Shown piece by piece: positions 17,901 to 32,264 of a DNA stretch of 32,264 nucleotides. Under the pieces are notes generated by a model that saw only the letters and a list, made by a program, of their open reading frames with translations, was not told the DNA's origin and did not search any database. The stretch covers positions 1 through 32,264 of the forward strand of contig DRHW01000030.1 of the NCBI GenBank assembly GCA_011053005.1, given 5' to 3'. Positions within the stretch are counted from its first letter, which is position 1, and every line of letters begins with the position of its first letter. Source of the DNA: Methylophaga sp. GTDB taxonomy: Bacteria > Pseudomonadota > Gammaproteobacteria > Nitrosococcales > Methylophagaceae. Both the position numbers and the translations under genes were made by a program.

Positions 17901-17916
17901 TGGCATAGCGATTGCT
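17901..17916 (+). promoter_or_regulatory. Sigma-54 promoter of the FNT transporter
   Basis: TGGCATAGCGATTGCT has GG and GC at exact -24/-12 spacing and differs from the consensus (TGGCAC-N5-TTGCW) at one conserved base. The predicted transcript starts near 17927, four bases before the first leader hairpin. Confidence 0.8.
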
Positions 17917-17930
17917 ATTCTTACAATGAA

Positions 17931-18012
17931 TTCTGCAATGGCGTAGAAGGCGATTTAATTTAAATTTTTAATGGTAATGAAGCCATATCTAACCTGTGTA
18001 GATATGGTTTTT
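17931..18012 (+). promoter_or_regulatory. ANTAR-target antitermination leader of the FNT transporter
   Basis: Hairpin 1 is TTCTGC-AATGGC-GTAGAA (17931-17948): a 6-bp stem with a hexaloop that has A at position 1 and G at 4, the pattern required by ANTAR proteins. A second A-A-T-G-G-T hexaloop follows at 17970-17975 on a weak stem. Its 3' side runs into an intrinsic terminator (arms 17983-17991 and 17999-18007, then five T). The porin leader has the same order and near-identical loops. Predicted function: binding of the downstream-encoded NasT-like protein stabilises the hexaloop hairpins and prevents terminator formation. Confidence 0.8.
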
Positions 18013-18038
18013 GTGTTTATAACATAAGGAAAAACAAT

Positions 18039-18845
18039 ATGTCCTATCTAGAACCGACAGAGTTCGTAACCAAGATGGTCGATGGCGGTGAAGCAAAAGT
18101 CTTCATGTCGACAAAAGACACGTTGATTCGTGGCTTTATGGCGGGTGCTACTTTAGCACTTGCTGCTGTATTTGCTATCACGGTCGCTGTTCAATCAGGA
18201 TCACCATTATTAGGAGCGATACTGTTTCCTGTTGGTTTTATCATGTTGTATTTGATGAAGTTTGATTTATTAACAGGTGTGTTTATGTTGGTGCCTTTAG
18301 CACTTTTAGATAAACGACCCGGTGTGACGTTTGGCGGTGTGATGAGAAACTGGGGTTTAGTGTTTGTGGGTAATTTAGGCGGCGCTTTAACGATCGCCTT
18401 TTTGATGTCATTCATTTTTACCTACGGTTATAACACTGATGGTGGTGCCATTGCAGCAAAAGTAAGCAGTATTGGTGAGTCGAGAACATTAGGTTATTCA
18501 ACCTATGGAATTGAAGGTTGGTTTACTATTTTCATCCGTGGCATGTTATGTAATTGGATGGTTTCGATGGGAGTAGTGGGGGCGATGATTTCTACTTCAG
18601 CCAGCGGTAAAATGATGGCGATGTGGATGCCTATCATGTTGTTCTTTTTTATGGGGTTTGAGCATTCAATTGTTAATATGTTTCTATTCCCATTCTCTAT
18701 GATCATGGGCGGTGAATTCACGGTGATGGATTATCTAATATGGAATGAAATTCCAACTGTATTAGGTAATTTGGTCGGTGGTTTTGTGTTTGTCGCATTA
18801 CCTTTATATTACACACACGTTAGAACAAGTCCGAACCGTAAATAA
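18039..18845 (+). CDS. Formate/nitrite transporter (FNT) family channel
   Basis: A 268-aa inner-membrane protein of the FocA/NirC family with six helices. GFMAGATLALAAVFAITVA is helix 1, FVGNLGGAL and CNWMVSMGVVGAM are the broken-helix regions, and GFEHSIVNMF carries the conserved pore histidine. NEIPTVLGNLVGGFVFV closes the fold. Family members move small monovalent anions (formate, nitrite, hydrosulfide). Position just upstream of cyanase and under an N-type leader suggests nitrite or cyanate as substrate; this is inference. The start has AAGGA 10 nt upstream. A terminator separates it from cynS. Confidence 0.9.
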   Translation: MSYLEPTEFVTKMVDGGEAKVFMSTKDTLIRGFMAGATLALAAVFAITVAVQSGSPLLGAILFPVGFIMLYLMKFDLLTGVFMLVPLALLDKRPGVTFGGVMRNWGLVFVGNLGGALTIAFLMSFIFTYGYNTDGGAIAAKVSSIGESRTLGYSTYGIEGWFTIFIRGMLCNWMVSMGVVGAMISTSASGKMMAMWMPIMLFFFMGFEHSIVNMFLFPFSMIMGGEFTVMDYLIWNEIPTVLGNLVGGFVFVALPLYYTHVRTSPNRK

Positions 18846-18857
18846 GCGATTTATATC

Positions 18858-18890
18858 AGCCTCAACTAAGTAATTAGTTGGGGCTTTTTT
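18858..18890 (+). terminator. Intrinsic terminator between FNT gene and cynS
   Basis: A 12-bp stem (18858-18869 with 18874-18885, one G-T pair), GTAA loop and a run of six T ending directly before the region of the cynS ribosome site. It may reduce cynS expression relative to the transporter, or cynS may have its own promoter. Confidence 0.85.
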
Positions 18891-18914
18891 ATGAAAGCAA
18901 GCGAGGGATATATA

Positions 18915-19355
18915 ATGAATAAACAAACGATGACTGATGTAATTGTGAGTACCAAGGCCAGTAAAGGCATTACATGGGAAAAAATGGGCATGGATTTGCA
19001 TTTATCACCCGTCTGGTTAGCCTCAGCCTGTTTGGGGATGAACAGTGCAACACCAGAGCAGGCTAAAGCGATTGTTGGTTATCTCGGTTTAGATAGTAAT
19101 GTCGCAACGGCGCTTGAAGACTATCCGGTTAAAACATGGGATCAGCAAATACCAACCGATCCACTTATTTATCGTTTTCACGAAATTACCGGTGTATATG
19201 GCAGTACGTTGAAAACGGTGATTCAAGAAAAATTCGGTGATGGTATTATGAGCGCAATCGATTTTTCAATGGACGTTGAAAAAATTGAAGATCCTAAAGG
19301 GGACCGTGTCTTAGTCACGATGAATGGTAAATTTTTGCCTTATAAAAGTTGGTAA
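18915..19355 (+). CDS. cynS: Cyanase (cyanate hydratase)
   Basis: A 146-aa enzyme that decomposes cyanate with bicarbonate to ammonia and CO2, giving usable nitrogen and detoxifying cyanate. The catalytic triad of E. coli CynS (R96, E99, S122) is present as R87, E90 and S113 in YRFHEITGVYG and DGIMSAIDF, with identical spacing. The DNA-binding-like N-terminal helical domain (GITWEKMGMDLHLSPVW) and C-terminal dimer strand (RVLVTMNGKFLPY) are intact. I chose the ATG at 18915 because GAGGGA lies before it; the ATG at 18891 directly follows the terminator T-run. Lack of a cynT carbonic anhydrase nearby is notable. Confidence 0.95.
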   Translation: MNKQTMTDVIVSTKASKGITWEKMGMDLHLSPVWLASACLGMNSATPEQAKAIVGYLGLDSNVATALEDYPVKTWDQQIPTDPLIYRFHEITGVYGSTLKTVIQEKFGDGIMSAIDFSMDVEKIEDPKGDRVLVTMNGKFLPYKSW

Positions 19356-19466: not shown

Positions 19467-21191
19467 ATGGCTCACCAATTAAACATCACCGTTGGTCAGT
19501 ATTCTGATAAAGGTCGCAAGGCGATTAATCAAGATTTTCATGGTGTGTATATCCCCGAACAACCGGTACTAACATCAAAAGGTATAGCCATTGCTTTGGC
19601 GGATGGTATTAGCAGTAGTGAAGTTAGCCAAATTGCAAGTGAGGCAACGGTGAGAGGCTTTTTGATTGACTATTATTGTACGTCGGAAGCATGGTCGGTT
19701 AATAAATCAGCCTTACAAGTTTTAACGGCAACGAACTCTTGGTTGCATTCACAATCGCATCGTAGTGAGCATCGTTACAATAAAGACAAGGGGTATGTCT
19801 GCACCTTAAGCTGCATCATTTTGAAATCGACAACGGCGCACTTATTTCATATTGGTGATTCGCGAATTTATCGACTTCGTAATGATCTTCTAGAGCAATT
19901 AACCGAAGATCACCGAAGCTGGCATGGTGAAACTGAAAGTCATCTCAGCCGAGCAATGGGCGTGATGCCGCAATTGGATATTGATTACCAAACGCAGGCT
20001 TTGATGTTAGATGATATTTTTATTTTGGCAACAGATGGTGTGTATGAATTTGTCAGCACAGGGTTCATTATCGACACTATTCAACAGCAAAATGATGATT
20101 TAGATGCCGCGGCTAAATGTATTATCGACAAGGCTTTTGAACTAGGCAGCGACGATAATCTCACCGTTCAATTAGTTCGAATTGATCAATTACCGACTCA
20201 GAATGTCGATGAGTTATATCAACAATTAACCGCATTACCTTTTCCACCGATATTAGAGGCACGAACGGTCTTTGATGGTTACACCATTGTTAGAAGTGTA
20301 CATGCCAGCAGTCGAAGTCATGTTTATTTAGCCATTGATAATGAAAGTAATGACTTGGTTATTATCAAAACACCTTCCGTTAATTTGCAAAGTGATGCCG
20401 CTTATTTAGAACGTTTTTTGATGGAAGAGTGGGTCGCACGACGCATCAACAGTCCTTACGTATTAAAGCCCTGTTTTCAATCTCGCAAGCGTCATTATCT
20501 TTATATTGTGATGGAGTATATTGAAGGTCAAACCTTAACCCAGTGGATGCGTGATAACCCTAAACCGAGCATGTTAGCAGTACGTGATATCGTAGGGCAG
20601 ATTGCCAAAGGATTGATGGCATTTCATCGGCTGGAAATGTTGCACCAAGATTTACGACCTGAAAATATAATGATCGATAGCGCAGGTACGGTGAAAATTA
20701 TTGATTTTGGTTCGACTAAAATGGCGGGCTTAACTGAAATTTCCAGTCCGTTGGAACGAGATCCTATTTTAGGAACGGCTCAATATACGGCACCCGAATA
20801 TTATTTAGGAGAAAGTGGCACAACGCGATCGGATATGTTTTCTTTGGCAGTCATTTGTTATCAAATGTTATCAGGTAGATTGCCGTATGGTATTCATGTT
20901 TCCAAAGCGCGTAGCAAGTCGGCACAAAATAAACTGTCTTATCAAACCGTACTTCATGAAGAACGTGAGATCCCCGCTTGGATTGATGACACGTTAAAAA
21001 GAGCATTACAGCCTAATCCTTTTAAACGTTATGAAGAATTATCTGAGTTTATATTTGATTTAAGTCATCCCAATAAAACGTTTTTACATAAAACAGCACC
21101 ACCGTTAATGGAGCGTAATCCTGTGTTATTTTGGAAAAGTGTTTCATTAGTTTTGCTGTGTGGTGTTCTATATTTAGCTATTTTTAAATAG
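19467..21191 (+). CDS. PP2C-type phosphatase fused to Ser/Thr protein kinase, with C-terminal membrane helix
   Basis: A 574-aa bifunctional signalling protein. Residues 1-~245 are a PP2C phosphatase: metal-site motifs IALADGISSS, HIGDSRIYRL, LATDGVYEF and GSDDNLTVQLV. Residues ~270-550 are a Hanks-type kinase: K301 in VIIKTP, catalytic HQDLRPEN (H393-D395-N400; Gln replaces the usual Arg of HRD), D413-F414-G415 and GTAQYTAPEY. The glycine-rich loop is degenerate (RSVHASSRSHVYL). The last ~20 residues form a membrane anchor. In Pseudomonas a similar fusion lies within nitrate-assimilation genes, and here it follows FNT and cynS, so a role in nitrogen control is a reasonable guess. No clear ribosome site is seen. 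Confidence 0.9.
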   Translation: MAHQLNITVGQYSDKGRKAINQDFHGVYIPEQPVLTSKGIAIALADGISSSEVSQIASEATVRGFLIDYYCTSEAWSVNKSALQVLTATNSWLHSQSHRSEHRYNKDKGYVCTLSCIILKSTTAHLFHIGDSRIYRLRNDLLEQLTEDHRSWHGETESHLSRAMGVMPQLDIDYQTQALMLDDIFILATDGVYEFVSTGFIIDTIQQQNDDLDAAAKCIIDKAFELGSDDNLTVQLVRIDQLPTQNVDELYQQLTALPFPPILEARTVFDGYTIVRSVHASSRSHVYLAIDNESNDLVIIKTPSVNLQSDAAYLERFLMEEWVARRINSPYVLKPCFQSRKRHYLYIVMEYIEGQTLTQWMRDNPKPSMLAVRDIVGQIAKGLMAFHRLEMLHQDLRPENIMIDSAGTVKIIDFGSTKMAGLTEISSPLERDPILGTAQYTAPEYYLGESGTTRSDMFSLAVICYQMLSGRLPYGIHVSKARSKSAQNKLSYQTVLHEEREIPAWIDDTLKRALQPNPFKRYEELSEFIFDLSHPNKTFLHKTAPPLMERNPVLFWKSVSLVLLCGVLYLAIFK

Positions 21192-27289: not shown

Positions 27290-27305
27290 TGGCACGCTCA
27301 TTGCT
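27290..27305 (+). promoter_or_regulatory. Sigma-54 promoter of the porin
   Basis: TGGCACGCTCATTGCT is a perfect match to the -24/-12 consensus. The -12 GC lies 16 bases before hairpin 1 of the leader, the same distance as in the FNT leader. Confidence 0.88.
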
Positions 27306-27319
27306 TTTCTATATTTAAA

Positions 27320-27397
27320 TTCTGCAATGGCGTGGAAACTAATTTAGTTTTTTAATGGTAACGAAGCCGTATCTATCTCGTATAGATATGGCTTTTT
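27320..27397 (+). promoter_or_regulatory. ANTAR-target antitermination leader of the porin
   Basis: Hairpin 1 is TTCTGC-AATGGC-GTGGAA (27320-27337), the same as the FNT leader except that one A-U pair becomes G-U, which keeps the stem. The second AATGGT hexaloop is at 27354-27359 on a weak T/A-rich stem whose 3' side overlaps the terminator. The terminator (arms 27365-27376 and 27382-27393) has 12 bp, one G-U pair and a T-run. The spurious open frame starting at 27355 lies in this RNA; the true porin start is 27439. Confidence 0.82.
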
Positions 27398-27438
27398 GTT
27401 TTTATAGCGTTTCGTTTTTATATTGTAAGGAAAAAATA

Positions 27439-28674
27439 ATGAATTTCACCAGAAAACCAATCGTATTGGCATTACTTGCTTCAGGAGTAAGCGCGATGGG
27501 CACGGCTAATGTTGCCTATGCTGAAGATGCTTTTTTCGATGCATTAACAGGCGGTAAAGTGAGTTTTACTGCTCGTGCTCGTTATGAAGCTGTGAAAGAA
27601 GATAATGCTAAGAAAGATGCTGATGCTTATACATTGCGTAGCACATTAGGTTATCAAACAGGGAGTTTTAAGGGCTTTGGTGCATTTGTTGAATTTGAAG
27701 ATGTGCGTGCCGTAGGCGATGAAGACTTCAATAATTTTGAAAATGGTCATACCAACTATTCAGTCGTTGCTGATCCGGTTGGTACAGAAGTCAACCAAGG
27801 TTATTTAAGTTATAACGGTTTTGATACTGAATTTAAATTAGGACGCCAAGAGATCACCTATCGTGATGCACCATTTCATCGTTTTATAGGTAACGTGTTA
27901 TGGCGTCAAAATCATCAATCATTCGATGGTTTTAGCTTGGTTAATAAATCATTTGATAACACTAAAATTGGTTATGCCCATATCGAAAACGTGAATACTA
28001 TTTTTGGTGAAGATAGCATAGGTAAAGCTCAAAATGTTGATATGAATAGTGATTTATTTAATATTCAATACAGTGGCTTACCAATTGGTAATTTAGAAGC
28101 TTATGCTTATTTACTTGATAATGAAGACGTTATTACGAGTTCAACGGAAACATTTGGTGCTCGTCTATCAGGTAGCCAAGCGATTAATGACGATTGGCAA
28201 GTGCTTTATAGTCTTGAATACGCGAATCAAGATGATTATAAAGATGGCCTGATGGATGACCAAAACTACTACCTGGCTGAGTTAGGTGGTAAATATAATG
28301 GTTGGACAGCGAAATTCTCATACGAAATGCAAGAGGGCGACGGCACTTATAGCTTCAATACGCCTTTAGGGACGAATCATGCATTCCAAGGTTGGGCTGA
28401 TATTTTCTTAGCAACGCCGAGCCGAGGTTTGGAAGATATGTATTTCACGGTGGTGGGTAATGTCTTAGGTGCAAAAGTGGTGGCGGTTTACCATGACTTT
28501 GAAACCGATGCTGATAGTCTTGATGCAGGTAATGAATTCGATATTTTAGCTGAAAAAACATTCAATACACATTACACCGTTGGTGTTCAATATGCCGATT
28601 ACAATGCGGGTGATGCATCATTAGGCTATGTTGATACTCAAAAATTCTGGGTTTACGGCCAACTTAAATTTTAA
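27439..28674 (+). CDS. Outer-membrane porin (alginate-export/OprD-like beta-barrel)
   Basis: A 411-aa protein. MNFTRKPIVLALLASGVSAM...AYA is a signal peptide, and the mature part is rich in alternating aromatic/polar beta-strands (VSFTARARYEAV, FVEFEDVRAV, FKLGRQEITYRDAPFHRFIG, TVGVQYADYNAG). It ends in LKF, with the terminal Phe required for barrel assembly. The RARYE and LGRQE segments resemble alginate-export-type/OprD-like 18-strand porins. AAGGA precedes the ATG. Its sigma-54 promoter and antitermination leader match those of the FNT transporter, so it is probably a nitrogen-compound porin, made when nitrogen is limiting and the inducing anion is present; the solute is inferred. Confidence 0.88.
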   Translation: MNFTRKPIVLALLASGVSAMGTANVAYAEDAFFDALTGGKVSFTARARYEAVKEDNAKKDADAYTLRSTLGYQTGSFKGFGAFVEFEDVRAVGDEDFNNFENGHTNYSVVADPVGTEVNQGYLSYNGFDTEFKLGRQEITYRDAPFHRFIGNVLWRQNHQSFDGFSLVNKSFDNTKIGYAHIENVNTIFGEDSIGKAQNVDMNSDLFNIQYSGLPIGNLEAYAYLLDNEDVITSSTETFGARLSGSQAINDDWQVLYSLEYANQDDYKDGLMDDQNYYLAELGGKYNGWTAKFSYEMQEGDGTYSFNTPLGTNHAFQGWADIFLATPSRGLEDMYFTVVGNVLGAKVVAVYHDFETDADSLDAGNEFDILAEKTFNTHYTVGVQYADYNAGDASLGYVDTQKFWVYGQLKF

Positions 28675-28917: not shown

Positions 28918-28933
28918 TGGCATCAATTGTGCT
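28918..28933 (+). promoter_or_regulatory. Sigma-54-like promoter of the sensor/antiterminator operon
   Basis: TGGCATCAATTGTGCT has GG and GC at the correct -24/-12 spacing; the -12 box is GTGC instead of TTGC. The predicted transcript starts near 28944, exactly where the first perfect hairpin begins. Confidence 0.6.
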
Positions 28934-28944
28934 TTATATATTAT

Positions 28945-29050
28945 GCCAAACAATTTTTTACTGTCATTTTAAATTGTTTGGCTTCTCTCTCTGCTCAATT
29001 TACGTTGCAGTTTGGGATAAGCCTTAGCAACAAAGGCTTATCCCATTTTT
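28945..29050 (+). promoter_or_regulatory. Two-hairpin leader with terminator before the sensor operon
   Basis: A perfect 12-bp hairpin (28945-28956 with 28971-28982, GCCAAACAATTT/AAATTGTTTGGC) is followed by a perfect 12-bp terminator stem (29014-29025 with 29033-29044, GGGATAAGCCTT/AAGGCTTATCCC) and ATTTTT. It precedes the 37-residue ORF, so transcription of the sensor operon must read through it. I found no A-x-x-G hexaloop here, so control may be by another mechanism. Confidence 0.6.
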
Positions 29051-29078: not shown

Positions 29079-29192
29079 ATGGGCTATTTAATTGATACGT
29101 TCTACTTAAGCCGTGAGTTACTCAAACTTTCTTTAATGGTGTTCGTTTCGCCATTAGGTTTGCTCGCCGTTTATCTATTTAGTTGGGAATGA
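29079..29192 (+). CDS. 37-residue single-helix membrane peptide
   Basis: A short ORF starting MGYLIDTFYLSRELLKLSLM with a good AAGG site 8 nt upstream. The C-terminal half (LSLMVFVSPLGLLAVYLFSW) is one membrane helix, and the N-terminal half is amphipathic. It is the first gene after the sigma-54-like promoter and terminator leader and ends 40 bp before the NIT sensor gene, so it belongs to that operon. I do not recognise it. It could modulate the membrane-bound sensor, or its translation could control the operon. Confidence 0.55.
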   Translation: MGYLIDTFYLSRELLKLSLMVFVSPLGLLAVYLFSWE

Positions 29193-29232
29193 GCTAATTT
29201 GAACGTAGTAGTTTAAGTTTAGAGAAATAAAT

Positions 29233-30090
29233 ATGGATTTAAAAATAGTTGCTACTGTTTCGGTCAGTTTATTGTTGCTTGTCATCATTAAATATTGGTT
29301 ATCGAATAACAAAAGACAGGCAGCTAAAATAAAGCTTGGATTTCGTCTAATCGAGCATATTCAGAAAGTCATCTCATGCTGCCAACAGCATAGAGGAATA
29401 AGTAATGCGATATTACAAGGTAATAAAAGCCTTAGGACTCAGCTTATTTCTACCCAATTACACTTAGATGAGCTCGTTGCTGAAGGCAATATTTTGGGTT
29501 TGAAAGCATTTCCGCAATGGGAATCGTTTATTGGTCATTGGCCTAAATTGAAAATGCATTCATTAGAGCGTGATTTAACGTCTCAAAACTTGCTTCGTCA
29601 GCATAATGTGATGGTTTATGGGCATTTGTCATTATTAGATGAATTAATGAGTGAGCATGATCTTACTTGGATTATGTTGGGTTCAAGTATTCATATGTCT
29701 CAACTGTGTATTGATACCTTAAAAGTAGCTGAAACGATTGGTCAATCAAGAGCCATTGGCTCGGGAGTTTGTTCGCGAGGCGAATGTCTTGGCATCGACA
29801 AAATATCATTAAGCTTTTTGCGTATTTCGATCATTTCACCTACCAATGAATTATTAACAGAGTTGAGCCAAGTCGAAGATCCTGTATTACTATCTCAGCT
29901 TACGGCTGCATCAAAACTCATCAAGGAGGCCGTTGATAAGTTGGTAGCAACGATTGAAGATAAAGTGCTAATTGATGGCAAAATAGAATTGGATGCAGCT
30001 GATTTTTTCAAACTGGCAACACAACCTATTGATGCTTTGAACGGCGTCTACAAAAGTCTTGTTGCTCATTCATCTCGCGCCACGAATTAA
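29233..30090 (+). CDS. Membrane-anchored NIT-domain (nitrate/nitrite-sensing) protein
   Basis: A 285-aa protein. One N-terminal helix (residues ~4-23) is followed by a helical domain of ~260 residues. QQHRGISNAILQGN (51-64) and ETIGQSRAIGSG (167-178) match the two conserved Arg-containing motifs of NIT domains (PF08376), which in NasR of Klebsiella line the nitrate/nitrite pocket; here they are R54 and R173. There is no kinase, receiver or ANTAR domain. Helix-then-domain order leaves it open whether the sensor faces cytoplasm or periplasm; residues after the helix are basic (NNKRQAAK), which favours the cytoplasm. The ANTAR gene follows after 11 bp. The NIT call rests on motifs, not on a search. 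Confidence 0.75.
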   Translation: MDLKIVATVSVSLLLLVIIKYWLSNNKRQAAKIKLGFRLIEHIQKVISCCQQHRGISNAILQGNKSLRTQLISTQLHLDELVAEGNILGLKAFPQWESFIGHWPKLKMHSLERDLTSQNLLRQHNVMVYGHLSLLDELMSEHDLTWIMLGSSIHMSQLCIDTLKVAETIGQSRAIGSGVCSRGECLGIDKISLSFLRISIISPTNELLTELSQVEDPVLLSQLTAASKLIKEAVDKLVATIEDKVLIDGKIELDAADFFKLATQPIDALNGVYKSLVAHSSRATN

Positions 30091-30101
30091 TATCGAGCCT
30101 A

Positions 30102-30686
30102 ATGTTTAAAGCAATTAATACCATCGTTATCAGCGATCAACCAGCATCAACACTGTTATTAAAAAAAGTGTTCGAATCGACAGAATATAAAATTATTTTT
30201 GAAAGCTCGATTTTAGATAAGCAGCTTTCTGGTTCATGGATGATCGAACCTGATCTATTGATTATCATCAATAGACAACTCGGGTCGGGAACATTAGAAC
30301 AATTAAAAACCATTATTACTCATTATCCATTGCCTATCGTTGTATTTAGCAATGTGGATACTAATGATGCTATTCATGAAGCTATTGAGACCGGTATTAG
30401 TAGCTATATTGTAAATGGCTTAGATGAAAAACGTATTATCAACATCTTAAAAACAGCATCTATAAGGTTTAACCATCAGCAGCAATTATTAAAACAGCTA
30501 GAAGATTTGAAAACGAGCTTAGCTGAGAGAAAAATTATTGATCGAGCTAAAGGCTTAGTGATGCAGCAAAGACAATGTTCAGAAGATGATGCTTATAAAT
30601 TATTACGAACATCAGCCATGAAGCAAAATTTAAAATTAGCGACCTTATCAAAAACGATAATAGAAGCCGCAGTTTTATTTAATTAA
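30102..30686 (+). CDS. nasT: NasT-like ANTAR-domain antiterminator with degenerate receiver
   Basis: A 194-aa protein. Residues 1-~120 resemble the NasT pseudo-receiver (ending PLPIVVFSNVDTNDAIHEAI and SSYIVNGLDEKRI). A coiled linker (~122-135) leads to the ANTAR RNA-binding domain (~135-194) with LAERKIIDRAKGLVMQQR, CSEDDAYKLLR and SAMKQN. The usual phosphoacceptor Asp after beta-3 is absent (IIIN at 54-57). ANTAR proteins bind paired A-x-x-G hexaloop hairpins to block terminators; the leaders at 17931, 27320 and 30885 are its likely targets. It is co-transcribed with the NIT protein, which replaces the NasS partner of classic NasS-NasT. Confidence 0.88.
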   Translation: MFKAINTIVISDQPASTLLLKKVFESTEYKIIFESSILDKQLSGSWMIEPDLLIIINRQLGSGTLEQLKTIITHYPLPIVVFSNVDTNDAIHEAIETGISSYIVNGLDEKRIINILKTASIRFNHQQQLLKQLEDLKTSLAERKIIDRAKGLVMQQRQCSEDDAYKLLRTSAMKQNLKLATLSKTIIEAAVLFN

Positions 30687-30849: not shown

Positions 30850-30865
30850 TGGCATCGTAACTGCA
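30850..30865 (+). promoter_or_regulatory. Sigma-54 promoter of the IS-interrupted gene
   Basis: TGGCATCGTAACTGCA has GG and GC at -24/-12 spacing, with CTGC in place of TTGC. It lies just before the third ANTAR-type hairpin. Confidence 0.7.
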
Positions 30866-30884
30866 TACACTAAAGTCATGAATT

Positions 30885-30978
30885 AATAATCCAACGGTGG
30901 ATTGTTCTTACTATCCCGGTTGGGAAAATAGATAAAGGCGTCTCTCAAGATAATCATCTTGAAGAGCGCCTTTTTTTT
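30885..30978 (+). promoter_or_regulatory. Third ANTAR-target leader with terminator
   Basis: Hairpin 1 has an 8-bp stem AATAATCC/GGATTGTT closed by the hexaloop AACGGT (30893-30898), again with A1 and G4. A small CCC/GGG hairpin follows (30915-30924) without a canonical hexaloop. A long terminator (about 30934-30973, two single-base bulges) ends in eight T. The loop sequence differs from the other two leaders but keeps the A and G required for ANTAR binding. Confidence 0.75.
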
Positions 30979-31006: not shown

Positions 31007-31022
31007 ATGGACACCATAAAAC
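31007..31022 (+). pseudogene. First five codons of a gene cut by the IS element
   Basis: After the third leader, TTGGAG and an ATG at 31007 begin MDTIK, then the IS end starts inside codon 6. The spacing and ribosome site match a real gene start. The rest of the gene is not in the window; it may lie beyond the IS. By analogy with nitrate-assimilation operons it could be a transporter or reductase gene, but five codons cannot show that. Confidence 0.6.
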
Positions 31023-31040
31023 TGGTAAGGCCTGAGTTTA

Positions 31041-31865
31041 CTAGACACTTTTCTGATTCTGAAAATACAGTCGTTCATACTCATTAGGTGATATTCGTCC
31101 ATTACTGGTATGACGACGTTTTGGATTGTAAAACATTTCGATGTAATGAAACATCGCTTGTTTAGCATGTTCTCTGGTTTTATATTTTATCCGCCTGATT
31201 TGTTCCTTCTTAAGATTACTGAAAAAGCTTTCTGCAACGGCATTATCCCAACAGTTACCACGGCGACTCATACTTCGTTCGATATTTAATTTACTCAATA
31301 ACTTTCTGAAGTTACGACTGGCGTATTGAGAGCCTTGATCAGAGTGAAACTTTACAGTTCCTGTCGGTTTGCGACGCCAATAAGCCATCGTCAGTGCATC
31401 GAGTACCACGTCATCAGTCATTCTCTCGCTCATCGACCAACCCACAATATTACGAGCATATAAATCCATGACCACGGCCAAAAACAAAAAGCCCTCATGA
31501 GTGTGGATATAGGTAATATCACTGACCCACCATTGGTTCGGTGAGCTGACGACAAATTCACGCTTTAAAACATTGGGAGCTGTATTGTCTGGCTTGCCTG
31601 AGTAATACCCCTTTGGTGTTTTATAACCACGTTCGGCTTTGATGTTTGTTTGTTGCATTAGTCGTAACACACGGTCTCGGCCACATTGAATCTTCGCTTC
31701 TTTTAGATCCAAGTAAATATTACGGTAACCGTAATGACCACCACTTTCCAGCCAATACTGTTTGATATAGGCAAGTAGGCGTTTATCCTCTCGTTCACGC
31801 TGACTAACGGGATGTTTCAACCAGGTATAGTAGCCACTAGGATGAAGATCAACGGCTGCACACAA
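31041..31865 (-). CDS. IS3-family transposase OrfB (DDE integrase domain)
   Basis: The 274-aa frame has the HTH_21 region (DLHPSGYYTWLKHP, YGYRNIYLDL) and a DDE core: SDITYI, HSDQGSQY and AVAESFFSNLKKE. The frame is open further upstream to 31958 in the -1 frame relative to OrfA, with RYAFIKARSQYYPV matching the usual fused region, so the functional product is the OrfAB frameshift fusion. The codon at 31865 is TTG and is probably not a real start. Candidate A_AAG slip sites lie in the overlap (near 31912 and 31950). No disabling mutation is seen. Confidence 0.92.
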   Translation of the reverse strand: MCAAVDLHPSGYYTWLKHPVSQREREDKRLLAYIKQYWLESGGHYGYRNIYLDLKEAKIQCGRDRVLRLMQQTNIKAERGYKTPKGYYSGKPDNTAPNVLKREFVVSSPNQWWVSDITYIHTHEGFLFLAVVMDLYARNIVGWSMSERMTDDVVLDALTMAYWRRKPTGTVKFHSDQGSQYASRNFRKLLSKLNIERSMSRRGNCWDNAVAESFFSNLKKEQIRRIKYKTREHAKQAMFHYIEMFYNPKRRHTSNGRISPNEYERLYFQNQKSV

Positions 31866-31897
31866 TAAGCGAACGGGATAATATTGACTGCGAGCTT

Positions 31898-32194
31898 TTA
31901 TGAAGGCATAGCGTTCTTTGACTCGCAGGCAAAGAACACGGCGGCTTCCTTTAGGATGTCACGCTCTTTTTGTGTCCGTTTTAGTTCACGTTTGAGACGG
32001 GCAACTTCAGCCTGAAGATCGTGTTGTTCCTCACGCTTTTTGGCAGGTTTTGATAATTCTTTTTGCCATTTGTACAAGCTTTTGGTGCTCACACCCAATC
32101 GCTTGGCAACTTCAGAAACATTATAGCCATGAACAATAACTTGATTCACCGCTTCTTGTTTAAATTCGTTCGTATATCGGATCCCTGTTCCCAT
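31898..32194 (-). CDS. IS3-family transposase OrfA (helix-turn-helix)
   Basis: A 98-aa protein with the DNA-binding HTH motif VIVHGYNVSEVAKRLGVSTK (residues ~19-38) and a C-terminal leucine-zipper-like coiled coil (LQAEVARLKRELKRTQKERD), both typical of IS3 OrfA. It binds the IS ends and is fused to OrfB by -1 frameshifting. Confidence 0.93.
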   Translation of the reverse strand: MGTGIRYTNEFKQEAVNQVIVHGYNVSEVAKRLGVSTKSLYKWQKELSKPAKKREEQHDLQAEVARLKRELKRTQKERDILKEAAVFFACESKNAMPS

Positions 32195-32264
32195 TTTTTT
32201 GACCCCTTATGGTTTAAGTTACATTTTTACCATAAAAAGTGTCTACAGTTTTCAGGCCTTACCA

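Follow-up and report, generated by a model that had tools for sequence, protein, structure and literature searches.

A predicted two-protein nitrate-responsive antitermination system, with a membrane-anchored NIT protein and a separate NasT-like ANTAR protein, in Methylophaga

How might nitrate control antitermination when the nitrate-sensing NIT domain and the RNA-binding ANTAR domain are encoded by separate genes, and the NIT protein carries a membrane anchor? This question is raised by a locus of Methylophaga sp. (assembly GCA_011053005.1, contig DRHW01000030.1), a marine methanol-eating bacterium whose nitrate-uptake genes appear to be switched by a two-protein device. The stretch of DNA that was analysed (the window; 32,264 nucleotides [nt]) is the entire contig, here C30, of a 2.89-Mb genome that is 99.96% complete. 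Nitrate-controlled antitermination is otherwise carried out by NasR, a single polypeptide, or by NasS-NasT, for which nitrate-dependent release has been shown in Paracoccus (PMC3795266). A preliminary description of the window, made from the sequence alone, proposed a third layout, in which a membrane-tethered NIT protein sequesters or releases a NasT-like protein. The two open reading frames (ORFs) lie where that description placed them, at 29233-30090 (285 residues) and 30102-30686 (194 residues) of the plus strand; the second starts 11 bp past the first, in a different frame.

The fold, motifs and hydropathy of the product of 29233-30090 mark it as a NIT-only protein with a predicted membrane anchor and as a predicted nitrate/nitrite sensor. 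An AlphaFold2 model (mean predicted local distance difference test score [pLDDT] 94.4, predicted template modelling score [pTM] 0.89) is an all-helical bundle, for which the best Foldseek match is NasR (4akk, E 1.6e-4); no match other than the two 4akk chains reaches E<=0.001. A VIA comparison of the model with 4akk gives Z 23.9 over 257 residues (root mean square deviation 4.7), versus Z 13.7 for the runner-up, the nitrate receptor McpN, and up to about 13 for unrelated helical bundles. The NIT-like fold that had been suggested for this protein is thus recovered, in a modelled structure. NasR was found by fold comparison only; a search of PDB sequences with the protein or its profile did not match it. 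Both nitrate-site motifs of NasR can be located, QxxRG in helix 1 (Q51-R54) and GQxRA in helix 5 (G170QSR173). Residues R54 and R173 are invariant across 20 aligned homologs and G170 varies. These motifs align beside the LQRERG and GQERA sequences of four NasR-like proteins from class genomes (four of five such regions were used, that of L196 being the one left out). The G-x-x-R motif and the glutamine variant of it present in NasR have been described (PMC8199190), as has the role of NasR residues E175 and R176 in the nitrate site (PMC7496416).

A hydropathy scan finds a single N-terminal hydrophobic segment in 19 of the 20 aligned NIT proteins, including that of the window; the exception, L028, has no N-terminal helix. 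Both the motifs and the membrane helix reported in the preliminary description are therefore present. The more positively charged flank of a membrane helix faces the cytoplasm (the positive-inside rule). Because positive charges follow the helix (0-1 before it and 3-7 in the next 15 residues, with a net charge there of 0 to +5), the NIT domain is predicted to be cytoplasmic, a position in which it would be accessible to an RNA-binding partner. Plasmid records contain no match to the NIT protein. Another NIT-domain protein is encoded in the source genome (L003, C2:10622-11191; 28.7 bits, over the Pfam cut-off); it is a long sensor with GGDEF-like sequence and has no adjoining ANTAR gene.

Pfam, PDB and modelling all indicate that 30102-30686 encodes a NasT-like antiterminator, composed of a degenerate receiver, a long helix and an ANTAR domain. 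The match to ANTAR (PF03861) is clear (E 1.3e-19, 70.1 bits, cut-off 27.3), and that to the receiver (PF00072) is weak, at 22.6 bits below the cut-off of 30.2. The closest PDB relatives, 6wsh, 1s8n and 4akk, are response-regulator antiterminators and NasR, and the model (mean pLDDT 86.0) displays a receiver-like part, the long helix and the ANTAR helices, in agreement with the NasT build claimed earlier. For comparison, an ANTAR search of a class sample of 369 genomes matched 100, three of these Methylophagaceae, and the 27 top-scoring loci from the matched genomes of other families were taken as an outgroup set of NasT. The phosphoacceptor Asp of the receiver, the first receiver Asp, and an Arg six residues past the phosphoacceptor position are each found in 0/28 Methylophagaceae ANTAR proteins versus 26/27 of the other NasT proteins. 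In the window protein the phosphoacceptor position is I, unlike in a phosphorylatable regulator of the EutV type. A maximum likelihood tree of these 55 ANTAR proteins separates the 28 from the 27 by a branch with 100/100 support. The equivalent of NasR W362 was considered as a mark of NIT coupling and rejected as non-discriminating, since it is Y in 28/28 family proteins and also in 22/27 of the others. A second ANTAR protein of the source genome (L002, C2:70738-70893, 238 residues) precedes a membrane sensor-like gene, and no nitrate gene was seen near it.

The arrangement of the two genes is conserved. In a survey of 57 Methylophagaceae genomes, the source genome included, there are 23 full-length NIT-only matches in 22 genomes, and an ANTAR gene lies directly downstream of 21 of the 23. 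In a survey of 18-19 named Methylophagaceae loci, mostly overlapping the 57 genomes, the pair is present in 18/19, as separate genes in all 18, with a 4-nt overlap of the NIT and ANTAR genes in nine. The named locus nearest to the window is that of Methylophaga sp. LH_M6, whose NIT protein is 74% identical. The third layout is thus supported as a layout; how it works is a matter of hypothesis. A literature search by title and start of abstract, with subscription papers mostly outside its reach, returned no NIT-only plus ANTAR gene pair, which is weak evidence for novelty. A study of the nitrate reductases of M. nitratireducenticrescens mentions the assimilation pathway, and its main text contains neither "NasR" nor "ANTAR" (PMC4689864).

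That the NIT protein stands in place of NasS is a fair description of the locus. In the outgroup set of 27 NasT loci, an NrtA/NasS-like gene occurs within about 1.5 kb in 22, some of these genes being NasS-like and immediately next to nasT and others being nrtA located behind it; a NIT gene occurs in none of the 27. It is the Methylophagaceae ANTAR branch that has lost the receiver Asp. A search of the source genome for NMT1_2 proteins yields two, NrtA itself (on contig C36, followed by nrtBC) and a binding protein encoded in a different ABC operon (C5). This search thus provides no NasS candidate besides NrtA, which is the leader's own target, and a genuine nasS elsewhere in the genome as the true partner was rejected on this basis.

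ANTAR proteins recognize an RNA target of two stem-loops whose hexaloops carry A1 and G4, the second stem-loop being mutually exclusive with a terminator (PMC3369931). The nrtA leader at 30879-30978 is, by pairing and covariation, a dual-hexaloop target of this type. An RNA model, R1, built from 15 sequences with that of the window included, finds one strong site in the source genome, this leader (E 4.5e-16), 150 of 1123 first-look candidates having been scored; matches at E 0.64 and 0.69 were taken as chance and rejected as further targets. With Rfam, at gathering thresholds, the whole window gives no match. The first stem, P1, lies at 30885-30906 with hexaloop AACGGT (A1, G4). Over 17 distinct sequences, 75.7% of cells are paired across its 8 pairs, of which the outer ones vary, and 18 cells have both sides changed, a value reached in 0/500 shuffles. 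Its covariation score is 0.319, compared with at most 0.120 for slid partners, and its count of pair types is unexceptional (96/500 shuffles). The second stem, P2, at 30930-30943 with hexaloop AAAGGC (A1, G4), overlaps the 5' arm of the terminator; 98.3% of its cells are paired, and its outer pair is A-U for G-C in 4/15 sequences. Taken together, P1 and P2 are paired in 94.1% of cells, with 13 both-sides-changed cells (0/500 shuffles) and unexceptional pair types (468/500); these shuffles ignore relatedness, and the leaders were selected for displaying the motif. The intrinsic terminator, which is mutually exclusive with P2, is at 30934-30977. Its lower stem is paired in 99.0% of cells (15 sequences), with one pair changed on both sides in 6, and when its partners are slid by +2 or +3 they still pair in 84-86%, owing to the runs of A and T. 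The covariation set (A3) excludes L050, which has no T run, and L047-L049, L052-L056, L109 and L028, in which the full motif was not seen; a wider set (A2) adds L050, L052 and L053 to A3.

The preliminary description spoke of target leaders in the plural, and of these one is supported. The other candidate, at 29013-29045, is a terminator-like hairpin between a sigma-54-type site and the first gene of the operon; it has no ANTAR loops and no R1 match and was rejected as a second leader. Terminator-like sites number 4 in the window versus 1.6 expected, and a similar hairpin can be seen by eye in the relative L038. Promoters of the sigma-54 type have a -24/-12 consensus, which was used in a pattern search. 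One such site (TGGCA N7 TGC; 28918-28933) precedes the regulatory operon and another (30850-30865) the nrtA transcript; the window contains 4 versus 0.45 expected, a number that 0/100 shuffles reach. Like sites precede the small first ORF in relatives, by eye. Sigma-70-type promoters in the window are at the level of chance (10 found versus 10.1 expected).

The locus was described as starting at 29079. This is the first base of a conserved ORF of 37 codons (29079-29192, plus strand), which makes a third piece, overlooked in that description. It is the first gene of the operon and encodes a predicted single-helix membrane microprotein without a Pfam or NCBIfam match. A 36- to 37-residue ORF lies upstream of 21/21 family pairs and of 18/18 paired named loci, and it is missing before both NIT genes that have no ANTAR partner. 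Its ratio of nonsynonymous to synonymous change (pN/pS; median 0.26 in 136 pairs of 17 sequences) indicates that it evolves as coding sequence, and its changes by codon position, summed over the 136 pairs, are 1523/543/2572. Matches to this microprotein family occur in 42 of the 57 family genomes, and those bearing the pair mostly have a second, weaker copy elsewhere, which in the source genome is at C44:16927-17025 (genome G000). In the class sample it is found in 2/369 genomes, both Methylophagaceae. Of six other loci of the family that were read (L217-L222), four adjoin a gene that looks by eye like tsaB and two are in other surroundings; judged by where its copies lie, the microprotein family has no fixed association with nitrate genes. 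An origin of the ORF as a remnant of the N-terminus of a truncated methyl-accepting chemotaxis protein (MCP) was rejected: the likeness is loose and by eye only, and the family copies elsewhere oppose it.

These observations are best accounted for by a two-protein, nitrate-responsive antitermination system, in which the NIT protein would restrain the NasT-like protein and nitrate or nitrite would release it; a probability of about 0.6 is assigned to this reading. What can be read from the sequence is the genes and how they are conserved, the predicted fold with its motifs, the decay of the receiver, and the leader RNA with its covariation. It is inferred that the two proteins bind each other, that nitrate is a ligand, that the system is under nitrogen control, and that the signal runs from restraint to release with sequestration at the membrane; any role of the 37-residue protein is likewise conjectural. 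Under nitrogen limitation, the sigma-54 promoters would transcribe both the regulatory operon (the 37-residue ORF, NIT and ANTAR) and nrtABC, the leader of which would terminate transcription by default. When nitrate is lacking, the cytoplasmic NIT domain would bind the degenerate receiver, possibly together with the ANTAR part, and so hold the antiterminator at the membrane in an inactive state. Binding of nitrate or nitrite at the arginines of QxxR and GxxR would then change the NIT bundle and free the ANTAR protein, which would pair, bind both hexaloops and stabilise P2, so that the terminator is prevented.

Several observations weigh against this reading. The window NIT protein scores 19.8 bits against PF08376, under the gathering cut-off of 24.9, so that of the two Pfam families named in the preliminary description ANTAR is clearly present and NIT is sub-threshold (16 of the 20 aligned homologs match PF08376 at E<=0.01, the best at 2.6e-10), and a profile comparison with the NasR-like proteins is weak (E 0.042). 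The full leader occurs in 10 of 19 paired loci (the window plus 18 named); the motif is only partial in L050 and L052-L055, and none was seen in L047-L049 and L056, four loci that lack a following nrtA. R1 also matches NasT loci of other families that lack NIT (L117, L123, L126, L142), so that, on these comparisons, a leader of this type does not by itself indicate the NIT-ANTAR pair. Two of the 23 NIT-only genes (L010/L040 and L028) have no ANTAR neighbour. In addition, of the 31 family genomes that carry this ANTAR gene (E below 1e-30), ten give no match to NIT. NIT can therefore be dispensed with: in those ten the ANTAR protein works without NIT, with another sensor, or not at all. On the ANTAR tree, the presence of NIT changes 4 times, 3 of these changes being forced by starred branches of the tree, a distribution that fits one gain and repeated loss without proving it. 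Nine of the ten ANTAR-only loci were read. A NIT gene is nearby in none of them. A downstream nrtA is present at six, five of which have an intact leader. No leader was seen at the sixth (L109), nor at two ANTAR-only loci without nrtA that were read more widely (L192, L193), which also counts against the proposal. As to a separate NasS in the ten ANTAR-only genomes, the strong NMT1_2 matches (E below 1e-95) are in six of them the nrtA behind the ANTAR gene; G051 has a partial match in that position, G014 has none, and G004, G006, G016, G033 and G044 have weak matches elsewhere.

The same ANTAR-only loci bear on the sign of the interaction. NIT could instead be a positive partner: nitrate-bound NIT would dock on the ANTAR protein and bring about its pairing, and antitermination would require NIT; nitrate binding in cis activates RNA binding by NasR (PMC7496416, PMC3369931), and the order of the genes, NIT then ANTAR, mirrors the order of domains in NasR. 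This is nevertheless judged unlikely. Restraint is favoured over activation because the ANTAR gene and its leader survive without NIT, and the five intact leaders fit the loss of a negative partner, such as NasS or AmiC, better than the loss of an obligate activator. It is less likely still that the true sensor is a different one (NrtA, the 37-residue protein or another kinase, for example), with which the ANTAR protein would work in all family members, NIT only modulating. Ten genomes do keep ANTAR without NIT, and of the nine loci read three retain the 37-residue ORF and six have nrtA behind the ANTAR gene; however, that ORF is absent from six of the nine, the phosphoacceptor Asp is gone, and a further sensor gene was not noticed next to these ANTAR genes, although no systematic search was made.

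NIT might also serve another output, chemotaxis or a kinase, and merely be co-expressed with ANTAR. This is improbable for Methylophagaceae, though it draws on what NIT-only genes do elsewhere. Outside the family, a truncated MCP gene lies directly upstream of 19/23 NIT-only genes, the MCP domain being Pfam-confirmed in 6/6 of the upstream genes tested, and an ANTAR gene lies downstream of none (0/23). This partner scan took NIT proteins of at most 370 residues, fusions being dropped, with neighbours within 250 nt, and was given 13 of a set of 30 loci, plus L190; at its edges, L069 is ended by a contig edge, L078 is a fragment and L060 is beyond the gap limit. Within the family, one NIT-only gene without ANTAR (L040/L010, G022) sits behind narHJI-like genes (by eye) and a porin and faces a histidine kinase gene. 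Against a separate output stand the tight linkage of the NIT and ANTAR genes and their overlap, as well as the outcome of looking for a chemoreceptor partner: a truncated MCP is directly upstream of the NIT-only gene in 0/19 named loci, and the N-terminal half of the MCP (a single query, L063) is absent from the source genome and gives one weak match in the 57 family genomes (E 3.4e-5, in G017, a genome lacking a NIT match). A role of NIT as a chemoreceptor subunit in this family was rejected on that one query.

The split chemoreceptor loci (L057-L059, L061-L065, L069, L070, L077, L146, L149-L153, L156 and L157; Colwellia, Thalassotalea, Pontibacterium and Rhodocyclales among them) encode members of the same membrane-anchored NIT-only family, but there the output gene, for a chemoreceptor signalling protein, is upstream, whereas in Methylophagaceae it encodes an ANTAR protein and is downstream. 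A literature search found no description of this truncated-MCP/NIT-only layout. There is thus an apparent change of partner by NIT-only proteins, from MCP to ANTAR. A single further case is suggestive: the lone outgroup NasT protein of the 27 without the receiver Asp residues and the Arg (L136, genome G100) comes from a cluster (L190) in which a NIT-only protein is encoded behind nrtBC (profile E 3e-17, Pfam NIT not reached; no clear N-terminal membrane helix) and which has two leader-like R1 matches (E 2.1e-5 and 4.4e-4). This lineage may have made the same swap independently. A wider reading is offered tentatively, as possible rather than probable: NIT-only proteins would be detachable nitrate sensors that act in trans and have exchanged an MCP for a NasT-type partner, whose receiver would have decayed to a docking surface; the RNA-binding protein would be released from the membrane, the 37-residue protein would be a third component, and G100 would represent a possible second swap.

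If the proposed restraint and release are correct, how does the system compare with those known? The AmiC protein of the AmiC-AmiR system is of a different fold class and senses amides. As is proposed for the present pair, a separate ligand-binding protein restrains an ANTAR protein (PMC3369931). The pair resembles NasS-NasT of Paracoccus and Azotobacter in having a separate sensor, a receiver-like/ANTAR antiterminator, and a nitrate-gene leader as the target. It differs from NasS-NasT in using a membrane-anchored NIT helical bundle as sensor, where NasS is soluble and NrtA-like, in the loss of the Asp and nearby Arg from the receiver, and in an additional membrane ORF of 37 residues. With NasR of Klebsiella it shares the NIT fold, the nitrate-site motifs, ANTAR, and a leader with A1/G4 hexaloops; it differs in being made of two polypeptides, with a separate membrane helix on the NIT protein and a receiver-like domain on the ANTAR protein. 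The system would then add to NasR and NasS-NasT a third way of wiring nitrate-controlled antitermination, with a membrane-tethered sensor. One sensor module would be exchangeable between chemotaxis and RNA-based gene control, and a receiver domain would be convertible to a docking site for a new sensor, which bears on the control of pseudo-receivers, an open question (PMC12632262). Since a single family contains a natural series (NIT with ANTAR, ANTAR without NIT, and NIT without ANTAR), these ideas are directly testable.

In the source strain the target gene itself is interrupted. The first codons of nrtA (31007-31022, plus strand) are followed by an IS3-type element at 31023-32264, flanked by AAC on both sides, and the remainder of nrtA with nrtBC is on contig C36; nitrate uptake through the nrtABC operon may, on this arrangement, be broken. 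The element includes an integrase ORF (31041-31865) and a second ORF (31898-32194; by eye). In the relative L038, nrtA is uninterrupted.

Other genes of the window and of its relatives can be briefly noted. A sigma-54-type site (27290-27305) precedes a gene for an alginate-export-like porin (27355-28674), which may be a nitrate-uptake porin; by eye, 11 of 13 listed loci have a similar porin gene ahead of the regulatory genes. At 17901-19355, genes for a formate/nitrite transporter and a cyanate lyase are preceded by a sigma-54-type site. In L037 (7959-11018), an ammonium transporter is fused to PAS, GGDEF and EAL domains. Finally, 19467-21191 of the window encodes one protein with PP2C phosphatase and Ser/Thr kinase regions, and in L049 a protein resembling it comes, by eye, after an MFS transporter.

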